Below, one piece after another: positions 41,101 through 56,275 of a stretch of DNA of 64,000 nt (position 1 is the first letter of the stretch; every line of letters begins with the position of its first letter). The DNA lies in contig NZ_SOCE01000003.1 in assembly GCF_004365175.1 (NCBI RefSeq), positions 434,001-498,000 of the forward strand. The letters run 5' to 3'. Origin of the DNA: Kribbella voronezhensis. GTDB lineage: Bacteria; Actinomycetota; Actinomycetes; Propionibacteriales; Kribbellaceae. Made by a program: the position numbers and the translations under genes. The notes under the pieces are model-generated. The model was not told the DNA's origin, made no database searches, and saw nothing but the letters and a program-made list of their open reading frames with translations.

Positions 41101-42630
41101 TCAAGCGGGGCGGTTGGTTCCGCAGCAGCCGCCGGCGGCGATCGCGGCGGCCGACGGGGGCTGCTTCACCGCGGCCTCGACGTCGGCGAGCATCTTCTGC
41201 TGGGCAGCGGGGGAGATGACGCGGCCGCGGGTGATGACCGAGTGGATCCGCCGGGTGTTGCGGATGTCCTGCAGTGGATCGGCGTCGAGTACGACGAGGT
41301 CGGCCAGCTTCCGCGGCTCGACCGTACCGGTGTTCATCCCGAGGAATCGCGCGGGCTCGATCGTCGCCGCGGCCAGCGCCTGCCTCGTCGATGCACCGGC
41401 GGCAACGAGCAACTCGAGTTCGTCGTGCAACGCGAAGCCGGGTACGGAGTACGGCGTACCGGTGTCTGTGCCGGCCAGGACCGGTACGTCGTGCTCGAAC
41501 AACTCGCGGACGAAGCGTTGCCGGTACTCCCACATCTGTCGCTGGTGGGCGATCTCCTCGGCACCGCGGTTCGCCTTGTAGAGGGTGTCCATCACGTACT
41601 CGAAGGTCCCGATCGAGTCCTCACTGAGGTACTTCAGCGTCGCCGGATCCGGGCCGCTGAAGTCGGGCAGGTCGAGCGCGTGGTGCATCGTCAACGTGGG
41701 CGTCACCCGGGTCCGGTTGCGTCGGAGCGTGCCGAACACGTCGGCCGCTCGCGCCGGGCTGTAGGTGTTCGCGGCGATCCACTCGATCGGGTGCATCTGG
41801 CGGAACCAGCCGTTGTAGTCCCCGGTCCGTACGGCGATCGCCTGCTGCATCCGGCGTACTTCGGCCTCGCGGGTCGACACCGACAAGGCCAGCGAGTGGA
41901 TGTGCTCGATACTGCGCTGCCCGGCGGCGCTGACCTGCTTGATCGACACTTGGTCCGGCGCATGCCCGTGCACAGTCAGGCCAACCCGGCGTGCCTCGTC
42001 GAGGATCGCCCGGTACGCCGTGGGGCTGAGCCGCGAGTACACCTTGACGAAGTCCGCGCCCTCGCCCTTCACCTGCCGTACTGCGGCCCGCGCGCCGGCC
42101 TCGTCGTTCACGACCAGCACGTGCAGCAGGTTCGGATCCCACAAGGTCGGGTCCCCGTCGATGATCTGGCTCGCCACGACCATCCGCGGTCCCAGCAGGC
42201 TGCCCGCCTCGATCCGGTCACGCCAGTCGTACAGGACGGGGTCGGGGGCCGCCATCTCGCGGACCGTGGTGAGGCCGTTCGCCAGGTAGAGCGGCGGCGA
42301 GACGTGCTCGTCACCCAGCGAATGAACGTGCATATCGGCAAGCCCGGGGATGACGAACTTGCCGGAGAGCCTGAGTTCGGTGGCACCACGCGGTACCGGT
42401 AGGCGACCGACTCCAATGATCCGGTCGCCGCTGATCAACACGGTCTGATGCTTGTCCCGGCGACCGCCCGCGACGTCGATGACGGTGACGTCGGTCAAGG
42501 CGGTGATGCGGGTGCCACGCCGGCTACGCGAGATGGCGGCGGCGGGGGAGCCGACGGCGAAGGAACCACCGGCAAGCACTGCGGCCCCGGCGGCGGTACG
42601 GGCGAGAAACTGACGACGAGAACTGTTCAT
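41101..42630 (-). CDS. Tat-exported amidohydrolase
   Basis: 509 residues. Tat signal: SRRQFLART followed by AAGAAVLAGGSFAVGSPAAA. Amidohydrolase superfamily metal site: LADMHVH, Lys in FVKVYS (possible carbamylated ligand), HGHAPD, EHIHSL and AGTDTG. VVLDADPLQDIRNTRRI and VITRGRVI close the barrel as in imidazolonepropionase-like and prolidase-like members. The substrate is open (peptides, lactones or cyclic amides). It ends in an unusual Cys-Cys (GGCCGTN). Upstream is the inverted-repeat region. Confidence 0.87.
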   Translation of the reverse strand: MNSSRRQFLARTAAGAAVLAGGSFAVGSPAAAISRSRRGTRITALTDVTVIDVAGGRRDKHQTVLISGDRIIGVGRLPVPRGATELRLSGKFVIPGLADMHVHSLGDEHVSPPLYLANGLTTVREMAAPDPVLYDWRDRIEAGSLLGPRMVVASQIIDGDPTLWDPNLLHVLVVNDEAGARAAVRQVKGEGADFVKVYSRLSPTAYRAILDEARRVGLTVHGHAPDQVSIKQVSAAGQRSIEHIHSLALSVSTREAEVRRMQQAIAVRTGDYNGWFRQMHPIEWIAANTYSPARAADVFGTLRRNRTRVTPTLTMHHALDLPDFSGPDPATLKYLSEDSIGTFEYVMDTLYKANRGAEEIAHQRQMWEYRQRFVRELFEHDVPVLAGTDTGTPYSVPGFALHDELELLVAAGASTRQALAAATIEPARFLGMNTGTVEPRKLADLVVLDADPLQDIRNTRRIHSVITRGRVISPAAQQKMLADVEAAVKQPPSAAAIAAGGCCGTNRPA

Positions 42631-42714
42631 GGGTTCCAGTGTTGTCGGGACGAGCGTGCGCGGCAGGGGTCGCAGAACCCCGATCGGGGTGGTGCTAGAC
42701 CCACCTGTTTCTCA

Positions 42715-43097
42715 CCCACGCCGCCGCCTACGGGCGCTCCTGCGTCGCGTCCTCCGGCGGCTGGCTCCCACCCGCCCGGGACGCGGGCTCCTACGCCGCC
42801 TGCTGAAACGGTTGCCTGGCTGAGGCCGCCGAACGAGTACCCGCAGGCTGAAGGCAAGAGAACCCGTGAGAGGCGACGACGTGAAATGAGGCGACCTCGG
42901 CCTGCAACTCAACCAGCTCCGGCGTTGGCCCTCACGTCACGCCCCTGGAGCGGCCTGCCACCCGCTTTCGGACACGTATTCGACCACCCGAGCCAGGCAC
43001 CCATCCAGCGGGCGACGGAGGAGCCCGCGTCCCGGGGCGGGTGGGAGCCAGCAGCCGAAGGACGCGACGCAGGAGCGCCCGCAGGCGGCGGCGTGGG
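42715..43097. repeat. 77-bp inverted-repeat pair flanking about 228 bp
   Basis: The left arm 42715-42791 and the right arm 43020-43097 are reverse complements over about 77 bases with roughly four mismatches and one single-base indel. Shared anchors include GGAGCCCGCGTCCC, GGCGGGTGGGAGCCAG and GGACGCGACGCAGGAGCGCC. The 228 bases between them have no credible gene. The structure occupies most of the 538-base region between the divergent amidohydrolase and propeller genes. It could form a cruciform, or represent a non-autonomous element. Confidence 0.88.
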
Positions 43098-43155
43098 CAA
43101 GACGCGCGCGCCTCTGCCGGCGTGCGTGGCTTGGGGCGCGACCCCGGTGTCCACC

Positions 43156-43169
43156 TATCCTCGGCCGGG
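43156..43169 (+). promoter_or_regulatory. leaderless -10 box of the membrane propeller gene
   Basis: TATCCT (43156-43161), seven bases, then the GTG at 43169; no ribosome site. Confidence 0.5.
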
Positions 43170-44704
43170 TGAAGTTTCAACTGGTCCCTCGCGGGCGGGC
43201 CATCTTTCTGGGGATCCTGGCTTTGGTCGGCCTGGGGGCGGTGGGTTGGGCGATCGCCGTGCCGCGACCGGTCCTGTACGTCGTGGGCCTGCTGCTCTGC
43301 GCGCCGCTGGTCATCCTGGCGGTCGCCGAGCTCGTCCGGCGTCGGACTTCGCGAAGGCTGGTTCTCTGGTCTGCTGGGTTGCTGGTCGCGGTGGTTGTGC
43401 TGGTGGTTGCGATCGCCATTCCGCGGGCGGCGCTGGACGGTCAGAGCCGATCCGGCGTCAAGTGGTCCGCATCGCTTGACGATCGGCTGTCGCACACGGG
43501 TGGAATTTCGGTCTGGGCGATCGGGGACCGTATCTATCTGCTGGGCGCCGAGCAGCCGCTGCGGTCCTACGAGAAGTCGACGGGCCGGTTCGTCGCGAGC
43601 TATCCAGCGGCCCGGTACAAAACGACGGCGGTGGCTGCCGACGGCTCGGTAGTTGGCTGGTCGGCCTCCGCCGATAACCAGGGCACCGTGACCTACTACT
43701 CCCGGGACGGTCAGGAGCTCTGGGCAAAGTCTTTCAAGGGTCGCGGGGCGATCGGCTCGCTCGACTACTTCACGCCCGTTGTGGCGGCGTCCGACGGGCT
43801 GGTCGTTCTCGCGGACTGCCAGTTCAGGGAGTTGAGCGAGGCCAAGCCCTGTACCTGGACCGGTGTCGACAAGACCGGCAAGACCGTCTGGACACAGCAG
43901 GACCACCGGGCGGCCGAGAACACTGCGGGGCGGACCGTCATCTTCCGCCGTACGGTCCCGGCGCTGCCGTCGGTGGTCGTGGGCCTGCGCCAGTTGGACG
44001 CGGATCGCAACGAGTACGTGATCCGGTCGGCCGTCGACGGCCGTGAGCTGAACCGGTACGCCGTCCAGCCGCTGAGCGCGCTCGGCCTGCAGGGTGATCT
44101 GACCGTGATCGCGGAGAAGGTCAATGGCAACTGCCAGGTGCTGGGCTTCCGCGACGGCAAGCAGGCAGTCGCGACCACGGGAATGCCCTGTTTGCAGGGG
44201 ATGCACACGACGTACCCCGGCAGCCTTCGGCTCACGCCCGACCGGGCCTATCTGCTGGAGGGTGGCAATGCGCGGACGGTGTCGCTGAAGGACGGCAGTT
44301 GGCGGTCGATCGGCGGCCTGACCATCTCCACCGGTGACGAGCCTGCGGTGGCCGGGTCGGACGAGATCGTCTACCGCAGCGGCGGCACACTGACGGCAGT
44401 CGACGCGGGCAGCGGTGACAAGCTGTGGAAGAAGGACGTGCCCGGGAAGATCGTCGACATGTACGTCGACAACGGCGGCCTGCTGGTGTTCAGCAGGCCG
44501 AACGTGCACAACCCGTTCCTGTCCCACGCGGACCAGGACGAGAACGCCCTCCAGGTGACGTCGTGGGTCTCGCGGACCGGCAAGCAGACCGCGTCGCTGC
44601 TCGTCCGGAACGGCGACGCGACCCGCGGCGCCTCGATCGGCCCGGGCCAGAGCTTCCTGGTCGCCTACGACGTCCCGGGCGTCCGACTGGTCGGTGCCGA
44701 CTGA
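43169..44704 (+). CDS. membrane-anchored PQQ-like beta-propeller protein
   Basis: 511 residues. Three N-terminal membrane segments (about 11-30, 34-57, 64-85) are followed by an extracytoplasmic beta-propeller with PQQ-like blades: [51 protein letters not shown] and [14 protein letters not shown]. No enzyme motif is visible; such proteins are usually scaffolds or sensors. GTG start after TATCCT. It lies 32 bases before miaB, which has its own -10-like TAGGCT. Confidence 0.83.
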
Positions 44705-48173: not shown

Positions 48174-48470
48174 GCGCCCTGAGAGCGTCGCCGCTAGAGG
48201 ATCCGCACCTTGGGCAGGTGACTTCTTGCTAGCAGCCTCGTGTCGCCACGTGAGTATTCTGCTCGAATCGACAATGGTGAGGCGGCACGTTCTCACCTAT
48301 TCGAGCGGTCCTTTCGTTTGGGGACGGTGTATCGAGCTCAATGAGAAACGCAACGCGGCACATTCAGTCACAGGCGGGCTCGCCTCAGCCACCGCGGGTT
48401 TGTCTGAGCAGCGACGGAGGAGCTGCGAACTACGGGCGGGCGGGAGCCGCGACGGAGGAGCGGCGTGGGA
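48161..48470. repeat. gene-free region with two GCGACGGAGGAGC cores
   Basis: 310 bases. From 48174 to about 48400 I see nothing but the promoter already listed. GCGACGGAGGAGC occurs at 48411-48423 and again at 48449-48461, 38 bases apart, the second within GGGCGGGCGGGAGCC...GGCGTGGG and ending at the stop codon of the next gene. This is the core of the dispersed repeat also found at 42.7-43.1 and 56.1-56.3 kb. Confidence 0.8.
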
Positions 48471-50354
48471 TCAGGCGTTGAGGAACTGGCTTGGTTTGAG
48501 GGCGTGGTCAACTATGCGGACGTCGCCGATGGTGCCGGCGAAGGTTTGGTCGATGGTGTTGGCGTAGTGGCCGGCGCCCAGGAGCCAGGGGGCGCCGGTG
48601 GTGCTGAGGCCGTTGGACGGGGTTGCCGGGTTGCGGAGGAGTTCTGAGGAGTCGACGTACAGGGTGCTGTGTTTGCCGTCGTTGACGACCGCGAGGTGGA
48701 ACCAGCGGCCGGCGAGTTGCTCGTGGCCCCAGTTCGTGAAGGTGTCGTTCTGGTCGAGCGGGTAGACCGCCCACTGGGCCTGGCGACCGCCGGAGAAGCC
48801 GAGCTTCGCGACCGGCTCGGACGGGTCGCTGCCGGTCTTGCCGACGTCGGCGCCGGTGCCGAGTCGGCTGAGCAGGCCCTCCCACGCGTGGTCGGCGCCG
48901 TCATCGGCCAGCTTGACGAAGGCTTCGATCGTGTAGCCGCTGCGGAAGGTCTGGCGGTTGAGTGGCGCGTTGTCCGCGGTACGGAGGTAGCCGCCGCGAG
49001 CGGGGTCCTTGCCGCCGGCAAATATCCAGCTGGCGTGCGCCGGCTGGTCCGGGTGGTGGTCGGTCGACGTCTTGAGGCTGTCGGCCGGGCTGCCCGGCAG
49101 CAGGACCGGGGTGAGGTCGTTGCCGCGTCCTGACCGGTCGATCACCTTGCTGCCAACAGCTCCATCGAGTCGCCAATAGGCGAGCGTGCCGGGGATGACC
49201 AGTTCGCGCGCCGGGCGTTCCGGACGGACCGGCTGCGGGTCGAACCCGGCGAAACGGGCGGTGAAGTCGAGAGGCACTGAGAAGCGGTTGGTCTCGTCGG
49301 TGAGTTCGAGCTCACCCTCGGCCAGCAGGCTGCGCCGGGCCGGCTGCTGCTCCAGGATCCACGGCGAGATGGTCTCGACGTCGATCGTGTTGCGCGCCAG
49401 GTCGAAGTGGTAGAGGCGGATCATCGCCGAGCCGCCGTAGTACCGGTCCTGGTAGTTGGTGATGTGCAGGTGCACGTCGTGGCCGGCCTTGTTCTGCCGG
49501 ATCACGCGGCCGGACGGCCAGAAGTGACCATTCAGGGTGAGGAAGATCTGGTCGTTGCCGTCGACAAGTTGTTCCCAGACGCGGTTGCCGTGGTCGGAGA
49601 ACTTCGCCACCGGGTCCCCGGCATCGGCGTAGACGAGCTCGTGGATGGTCAAGATGACCGGCATCCGAGGGTGGTCGGCGATCACCTTGCGCGCCCACGC
49701 GAAGCCGGCGTCCGACGGTCGCCAGTCCATTGCCAGCAGCAACCATTGCCGGCCGGCCGCGCGGAACACGTGGTACGAGTTGTACCCGTCCGGCGTCGAC
49801 CCGCCGTACGTGCTCGATCTGCGGAACCGGCGCGGCCCGAAGGTCTGCAGGTACGGCGTATCGCCGCGCTGGTCGTCGGTGCTGCCGTCGATGTCGTGAT
49901 TGCCCGCGAGCACGGAGTACGGCATCCGGGCACGGTCGAGTACGTCGAACACAGGGGCCGCTTGGGCGAACTCCATCGTGAGCGCGTTCTCCACCACGTC
50001 GCCGAGATGCGCGGTGAAGACGATGTTGTCCGCGGCCCGCTGCTCGATCAGATACTCGAAGCTCGCGGTCAACGGCGCGGGATCGCCCCGGTCGGTGTCG
50101 AACAAGTACTGCGTGTCCGGCACGACGGCGAGCGTGAATCGCGGGCTGTCCGGATCCCCCGTACGCCGCGCAGCCGCGCCGGTGGTGACCGCCGCCGAGG
50201 CGGTGTCGCCCATCGTCGAGGCGGTGTCAGTCGTCGTACCGGCGAAGGCAGGTGAAAGAGCGCCCGGCAGAGCCCCGACTCCGAGCGCGCCGACGCCGGT
50301 AGCACCGGCCTGAAGCAGCCGCCGCCGGCTCGTACCGTCGTTGTGGATGGTCAT
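48471..50354 (-). CDS. Tat-exported metallophosphoesterase with LamG domain
   Basis: 627 residues. Tat signal SRRRLLQAGATGVGALGVGALPGA. Calcineurin-like phosphoesterase domain (about 70-340): VVPDTQYL, HLGDVVENA, LAGNHDIDG, ILTIHELVYADAG and LNGHFWPSG, all metal-binding motifs. C-terminal concanavalin/LamG domain (about 395-620): AYWRLDG...VIDRSGRGNDL, GYTIEAFVKL, GRWFHLAVVNDGKHSTLYVDS. A secreted phosphodiesterase or phosphomonoesterase with a binding module. ATG at 50354 lies before a hydrophilic stretch as expected for Tat substrates. Confidence 0.92.
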   Translation of the reverse strand: MTIHNDGTSRRRLLQAGATGVGALGVGALPGALSPAFAGTTTDTASTMGDTASAAVTTGAAARRTGDPDSPRFTLAVVPDTQYLFDTDRGDPAPLTASFEYLIEQRAADNIVFTAHLGDVVENALTMEFAQAAPVFDVLDRARMPYSVLAGNHDIDGSTDDQRGDTPYLQTFGPRRFRRSSTYGGSTPDGYNSYHVFRAAGRQWLLLAMDWRPSDAGFAWARKVIADHPRMPVILTIHELVYADAGDPVAKFSDHGNRVWEQLVDGNDQIFLTLNGHFWPSGRVIRQNKAGHDVHLHITNYQDRYYGGSAMIRLYHFDLARNTIDVETISPWILEQQPARRSLLAEGELELTDETNRFSVPLDFTARFAGFDPQPVRPERPARELVIPGTLAYWRLDGAVGSKVIDRSGRGNDLTPVLLPGSPADSLKTSTDHHPDQPAHASWIFAGGKDPARGGYLRTADNAPLNRQTFRSGYTIEAFVKLADDGADHAWEGLLSRLGTGADVGKTGSDPSEPVAKLGFSGGRQAQWAVYPLDQNDTFTNWGHEQLAGRWFHLAVVNDGKHSTLYVDSSELLRNPATPSNGLSTTGAPWLLGAGHYANTIDQTFAGTIGDVRIVDHALKPSQFLNA

Positions 50355-56105: not shown

Positions 56106-56275
56106 GCCGGTACGACGGAGGAGCCGCCCCACGCAGCTCCTCCGTCGCCGCTCCCACCCACCCTGAAACGCCGGCTCCTGGCGTCGCGGCTAAGTAGGCC
56201 CGCCCCGTCGCCTGCTCCCGCGTCGCGGCTCCCCCCACCCGAAACAACGCTCCTACGTCGCGGCTCCGCCAAGCG
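56106..56275. repeat. array of GCTCCTNCGTCGC repeat cores
   Basis: Reverse-complement cores at 56136-56148 (GCTCCTCCGTCGC), 56174-56187 (with one extra base), 56214-56226 (GCTCCCGCGTCGC) and 56249-56261 (GCTCCTACGTCGC), spaced 38, 40 and 35 bases. Same family as at 42.7-43.1 and 48.4 kb. The array lies between converging genes. Confidence 0.82.
56114..56146 (+). terminator. hairpin after ggt, formed by repeat cores
   Basis: GACGGAGGAGC (56114-56124) pairs perfectly with GCTCCTCCGTC (56136-56146). It lies nine bases past the ggt stop, and is made of two opposed copies of the dispersed repeat core. Confidence 0.7.

Follow-up and report, generated by a model that had tools for sequence, protein, structure and literature searches.

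REP-like repeats have been studied mostly in proteobacteria, where their spread is attributed to a RAYT transposase. In the CGTC-tagged REPs the CGTC is an unpaired end tag, and each unit has an 8-9 bp stem and a loop of 4-5 bases (PMC3733652). REP hairpins can affect the genes that they follow: in E. coli, those separated from a stop codon by fewer than 16 nt reduce translation (PMC12306157). Rho prefers C-rich unstructured RNA, a preference that the Rho of M. tuberculosis retains (PMC4167861). The inverted repeat described here is located in a stretch of 64,000 nucleotides of the Kribbella voronezhensis genome, called the window below. Its arms are facing copies of one element that is specific to Kribbella and probably of a REP/BIME-like kind, and for which spread and a role at the 3'-end of transcripts are proposed from its placement and turnover.

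A sequence-only reading of the window had reported a long, near-identical inverted repeat at 42715-43097 in a divergent promoter region. The repeat is present there, and its arms extend to 98 and 99 nt (42715-42812 and 42999-43097), with 89 of 98 bases identical (91%) and one gap; over their first 77 bases they are only 3 substitutions and one 1-base gap apart. The divergent setting was likewise confirmed, since the amidohydrolase gene starts at 42630 on the minus strand and the PQQ-repeat gene at 43169 on the plus strand, both pointing outward. As for the 228 geneless bases said to lie between the arms, no credible gene was found in the enclosed sequence, but its truly non-repeated part measures 186 bp (42813-42998). 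The features of the pair, its neighbours and the other copies in the window are as follows.

42715-42812, plus strand: left twin-hairpin repeat copy, C-rich strand, with the outer CCCACG at 42715 and an R2 match at 42736-42807.
42732-42752, plus strand: hairpin 1 of the left copy, GGGCGC, loop TCCTGCGTC, GCGTCC (from sequence, loop match and co-variation of the first-hairpin stems).
42765-42777, plus strand: C-rich linker CTCCCACCCGCCC between the hairpins of the left copy (from sequence; conserved among copies).
42783-42803, plus strand: hairpin 2 of the left copy, GCGGGC, loop TCCTACGCC, GCCTGC (from sequence, loop match and stem co-variation).
42813-42998, no strand: 186-bp geneless core between the copies, oriented as in K. 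monticola.
42999-43097, minus strand: right twin-hairpin repeat copy, C-rich strand, with the outer CCCACG at 43097 and an R2 match at 43003-43076.
43060-43080, minus strand: hairpin 1 of the right copy, GGGCGC, loop TCCTGCGTC, GCGTCC (from sequence and loop match).
43008-43028, minus strand: hairpin 2 of the right copy, GCGGGC, loop TCCTCCGTC, GCCCGC (from sequence, loop match and stem co-variation).
41101-42630, minus strand: Tat-type amidohydrolase gene, starting 84 nt to the left of the pair (ORF call and profile search).
43169-44704, plus strand: PQQ-repeat membrane protein gene, starting 71 nt to the right of the pair (ORF call and profile search).
48403-48472, minus strand: third copy, compact (R2, 80.1 bits, E 2.4e-16).
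56125-56195, plus strand: fourth copy, 3' of a plus-strand stop codon (R2, 68.8 bits).
56202-56269, plus strand: fifth copy, making a tandem pair with the fourth (R2, 41.8 bits).

When the whole 64-kb window was scanned, no second inverted repeat with arms of at least 28 nt within 1.5 kb was found, and a terminator scan of 42400-43400 gave no terminator-like site. Upstream of the minus-strand gene, at 42672-42695, is a separate palindrome, CCCCGATCGGGG, which we regard as a candidate operator. Its left half (CCCCGATC) is identical in K. monticola, where the right half reads ACGGG. The PQQ-repeat gene (43169-44704) was present in two of the 38 Kribbella genomes searched, this one and that of K. 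monticola.

Each arm matched dozens of further places in the genome, which excludes a chance origin of the inverted repeat. BLAST gave 84 matches to the pair in the 8.03 Mb of K. voronezhensis, a sequence-only model gave 143 places at E<=1, and a model that included the twin hairpins recognised at least 133 copies among 134 candidates scored. The structured model also recognised 108 copies in K. monticola and 29-73 in six further Kribbella genomes; the remaining 30 Kribbella genomes had two copies at most, and the other genera of the order that were sampled gave one marginal match. Exact copies of the 13-mer GCTCCTNCGTCGC numbered 278 in K. voronezhensis, against 4 for a reversed-pattern control, and 62-126 in five other Kribbella genomes, with most others near background. 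The twin-hairpin family appears, from these counts, to be confined to one clade of Kribbella, with about 30 to at least 130 copies per genome, and to be almost absent elsewhere. No phage matches to the repeat were found, and the single plasmid match, of 37 nt, was to a Nonomuraea record as large as a chromosome; a literature search on Kribbella repeats found nothing relevant. In one place of the K. voronezhensis genome (L097:1364-1827), three near-identical tandem units lie about 195 bp apart, which is a recent tandem amplification.

The search for the same arms in this genome and in relatives, which the sequence-only reading had proposed, accordingly turned up a dispersed family both here and in further Kribbella. 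That reading had also named exact conservation across distant relatives, as part of a known RNA, as the finding that would speak against it; no Rfam match up to an E of 1 was obtained in 42000-44000, and the family is Kribbella-confined.

More than 100 copies of a small palindromic extragenic unit, found also as inverted and tandem dimers, would fit REP sequences mobilised by a RAYT (a Y1 HUH transposase) that has since been lost from the genome. We consider this improbable, because Y1_Tnp (PF01797) was detected in none of 18 genomes, eight element-rich ones included, although positive controls were detected, and because the GTAG end tag is absent, the conserved flank being CCCACG instead.

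The copies align over about 95 nt, with CCCACG first on the C-rich strand, followed by hairpin 1 with the loop TCCTNCGTC, a C-rich linker of the CTCCCACCCACCC type and hairpin 2 with an identical loop. Most copies are compact units of about 69 nt within a family range of about 65-98 nt, and the spacing from loop to loop is 37-38 nt in compact copies, against 51-52 nt in the longer form to which the window arms belong. The stems are 5-6 bp long and the loops 9 nt, with CGTC inside the loop, and the TCCTNCGTC loop is closed by an invariant C-G pair. Stem bases vary widely among copies while pairing is kept. Among 71 distinct second hairpins, 89.9% of the pairing cells were paired, against 66.0% after shuffling, and the covariation was 0.493 against 0.120, a value reached in 0 of 500 shuffles and lower in all slid registers. 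First hairpins co-varied likewise, more weakly, and the same was seen in 29 compact twin hairpins. In 47 distinct copies from other Kribbella genomes, which had been left outside model building yet were aligned to the model, 92.5% were paired, and nine of the ten pairs had changed on both sides.

The twin-hairpin structure became visible only when stem pairs were counted over many copies, single-copy folds being unremarkable: the folding free energy of a single 135-nt copy was not unusual (z -0.9). An RNAalifold consensus of the first 23 copies recovered the second hairpin with a covariation term of almost nil. The unit is 49% C and 28% G, against 33% and 33% in the sequence 3' of genes that have no unit. 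After hairpin 2 the sequence is GCT[CG]A-like, and no U-tract follows the hairpin, as it would in an intrinsic terminator.

Units are usually located 3' of a stop codon in sense orientation, either singly, as tandem copies, or face to face where two genes converge. The compact copy at 48403-48472, directly 3' of the stop codon that ends gene 48471-50354 on the minus strand, exemplifies this usual arrangement. Gene positions were taken from codon-usage ORF calls and no annotation. Of the 117 copies of K. voronezhensis, 52 had the outer CCCACG end no more than 30 nt from a stop codon and two had it equally close to a start codon, whereas the inner end came within 30 nt of a stop codon in a single copy; about one fifth of the copies had a start, not a stop, behind them. 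Of 48 intergenic hairpins in an unbiased sample of 864 kb, 19 were between convergent genes, compared with about 18% of random intergenic positions. Because hairpins are enriched there, facing pairs mostly represent two gene ends that meet. The pair at 42715-43097 faces inward in the way that is usual for the family but is an exception in its place, located between two gene starts and behind no stop codon, and we read it as an older, displaced pair, which either moved as a block or was left when the genes that once ended there were lost. Judging from its position and structure, it may at most stop transcripts that run inward between the two promoters.

In order to follow the turnover of the family, the orthologous K. 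monticola sites of 21 copies were read. About two thirds of them had no unit in K. monticola, while the flanking genes were 88-97% identical, and homology mostly broke no further than about 25 nt from the CCCACG end. K. voronezhensis has about 160-430 extra bases at the four empty sites that were cleanest. Two K. monticola copies were internally shortened (L018/L086 and L017/L078), their outer end and second hairpin being kept. As read from these alignments, the comparison showed units to be both gained and lost between closely related species. At one locus (L017:1154-2101), a gene of the APH family (aminoglycoside phosphotransferase-like) is located between facing copies and is missing at the K. 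monticola site.

The empty sites in K. monticola would also be expected if the pair were a MITE, that is, a non-autonomous DNA transposon of 383 bp, bounded by terminal inverted repeats of 98 bp and mobilised in trans by a DDE-type transposase, and where nearby pairs were examined, their CCCACG ends do point outward as terminal inverted repeats would. We consider this unlikely, however. Copies are mostly single or tandem rather than paired, so that they do not form terminal inverted repeats; the interiors of the pairs, of 0.3-1.3 kb, are unrelated and have nothing in common; convergent genes account for the facing pairs; and the orientation of the units is locked to stop codons. Among the genes of about ten wide pairs, inspected as ORF calls, no transposase was identified, and profile search recognised one APH-like kinase. 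Finally, no target-site duplication was evident at the four cleanest empty sites, a test that is limited by intergenic divergence.

These comparisons also bear on the origin that the sequence-only reading had proposed. A mobile-element origin holds in so far as the pair is element-derived, belonging to a dispersed family whose presence differs between sister species, whereas the reading as a MITE is disfavoured, and the search for target-site duplications that had been suggested found none recognisable at the four cleanest empty sites. The pair is not the product of a recent event, as had been thought, because K. monticola carries it at the same place, the likeness between the two species being 85% for the left arms and 76% for the right arms.

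Within K. monticola the two arms are 70% alike. The 91% likeness of the K. voronezhensis arms, set against the 76% of the right arms between species, hints that either the arms have exchanged sequence or the right arm has decayed in K. monticola. Arm exchange would fit an invertible promoter segment or a cruciform switch for the two divergent genes, and so would long near-identical arms around a 186-bp core between two gene starts. Such a switch is nevertheless very improbable, because the arms are generic dispersed repeats, no recombinase gene was noticed beside the pair, and the core has the same orientation in the two genomes compared (forward score 18.5, inverted score 2.5, best of 200 shuffles 14.0); the inversion hotspot put forward earlier finds no support in this pair of genomes. 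The pair is kept in both species together with the right-hand gene, as would be expected of an RNA or DNA site that regulates the two flanking genes in cis, is specific to them and is kept by selection; but the same unit is found at more than 100 unrelated genes, and the right arm has decayed in K. monticola, and we hold a site of that kind to be quite improbable.

The placement, the turnover and the co-varying stems together suggest that the family is most likely a new REP/BIME-like kind without RAYT that would act in RNA at gene 3'-ends. A job in RNA is indicated by the orientation lock to stop codons and by the co-varying stems, although it might instead be in single-stranded DNA that the hairpins act. 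According to the proposed mechanism, units would spread as copies inserted behind stop codons and would then act within the transcript as a 3'-end module that may mark or protect the mRNA end or may aid transcription termination. Rho would probably act on the C-rich linker between the hairpins, judging from its composition. A 3'-end module of the Rho type fits the strand asymmetry, the C-rich linker between hairpins and the placement behind stops. The unit might also affect the gene upstream of it, by analogy with the E. coli REP hairpins that lower translation near a stop codon.

More tentatively, it is possible that a Kribbella clade acquired a portable 3'-end RNA module, which would spread RAYT-free behind stop codons in one orientation and would give more than 100 genes new transcript ends, such as Rho-dependent terminators. 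That the same genes have the unit in one sister species and lack it in another makes both the movement of the repeat and its effects on transcript ends directly testable. The family is a structurally distinct REP-like burst in one actinobacterial clade, in which no RAYT was found.

Several known systems share part of these characteristics. Paired Kribbella copies resemble the terminal inverted repeats of MITEs and the family looks mobile, as MITEs do; unlike them, single copies prevail, and no target duplications or common interior were seen. In being C-rich, G-poor and located behind genes, the unit is like the rut sites of Rho-dependent termination; its C-rich linker is, however, flanked by two conserved hairpins, so that the likeness is one of composition and placement. 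The palindromic arrays of a genome from another family of the Propionibacteriales (G026) have the apical 13-mer GCTCCTNCGTCGC in common with the Kribbella unit, but the stems of those palindromes (GGTCTCGATACG...CTACTCGACC) are longer and different, and the arrays alternate. Such GGTCTCGATACG...CTACTCGACC arrays are dense at loci L199-L226 of that genome, where GCTCCTNCGTCGC has 125 copies in 3.6 Mb.

The CGTC-tagged REPs (Di Nocera et al. 2013, PMC3733652) are similar in having no dedicated transposase, CGTC in every unit and inverted dimers, although the geometry is different, with CGTC inside a 9-nt loop on a 5-6 bp stem in Kribbella; no actinobacterial case was found in the text of that paper. 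The closest likeness is to the gammaproteobacterial REP/BIME (PU, GTAG-tagged), which are also short palindromic extragenic units in more than 100 copies, form mosaic tandem and inverted groups, and are in many cases located directly behind stop codons (PMC2817692, PMC12306157). The Kribbella repeat is likewise a high-copy, short palindromic extragenic unit. It differs from REP/BIME in having neither RAYT nor a GTAG tag and in belonging to the Actinobacteria, as well as in its 5-6 bp stems, its 9-nt loops, its two hairpins at fixed spacing and its orientation locked to the sense strand.
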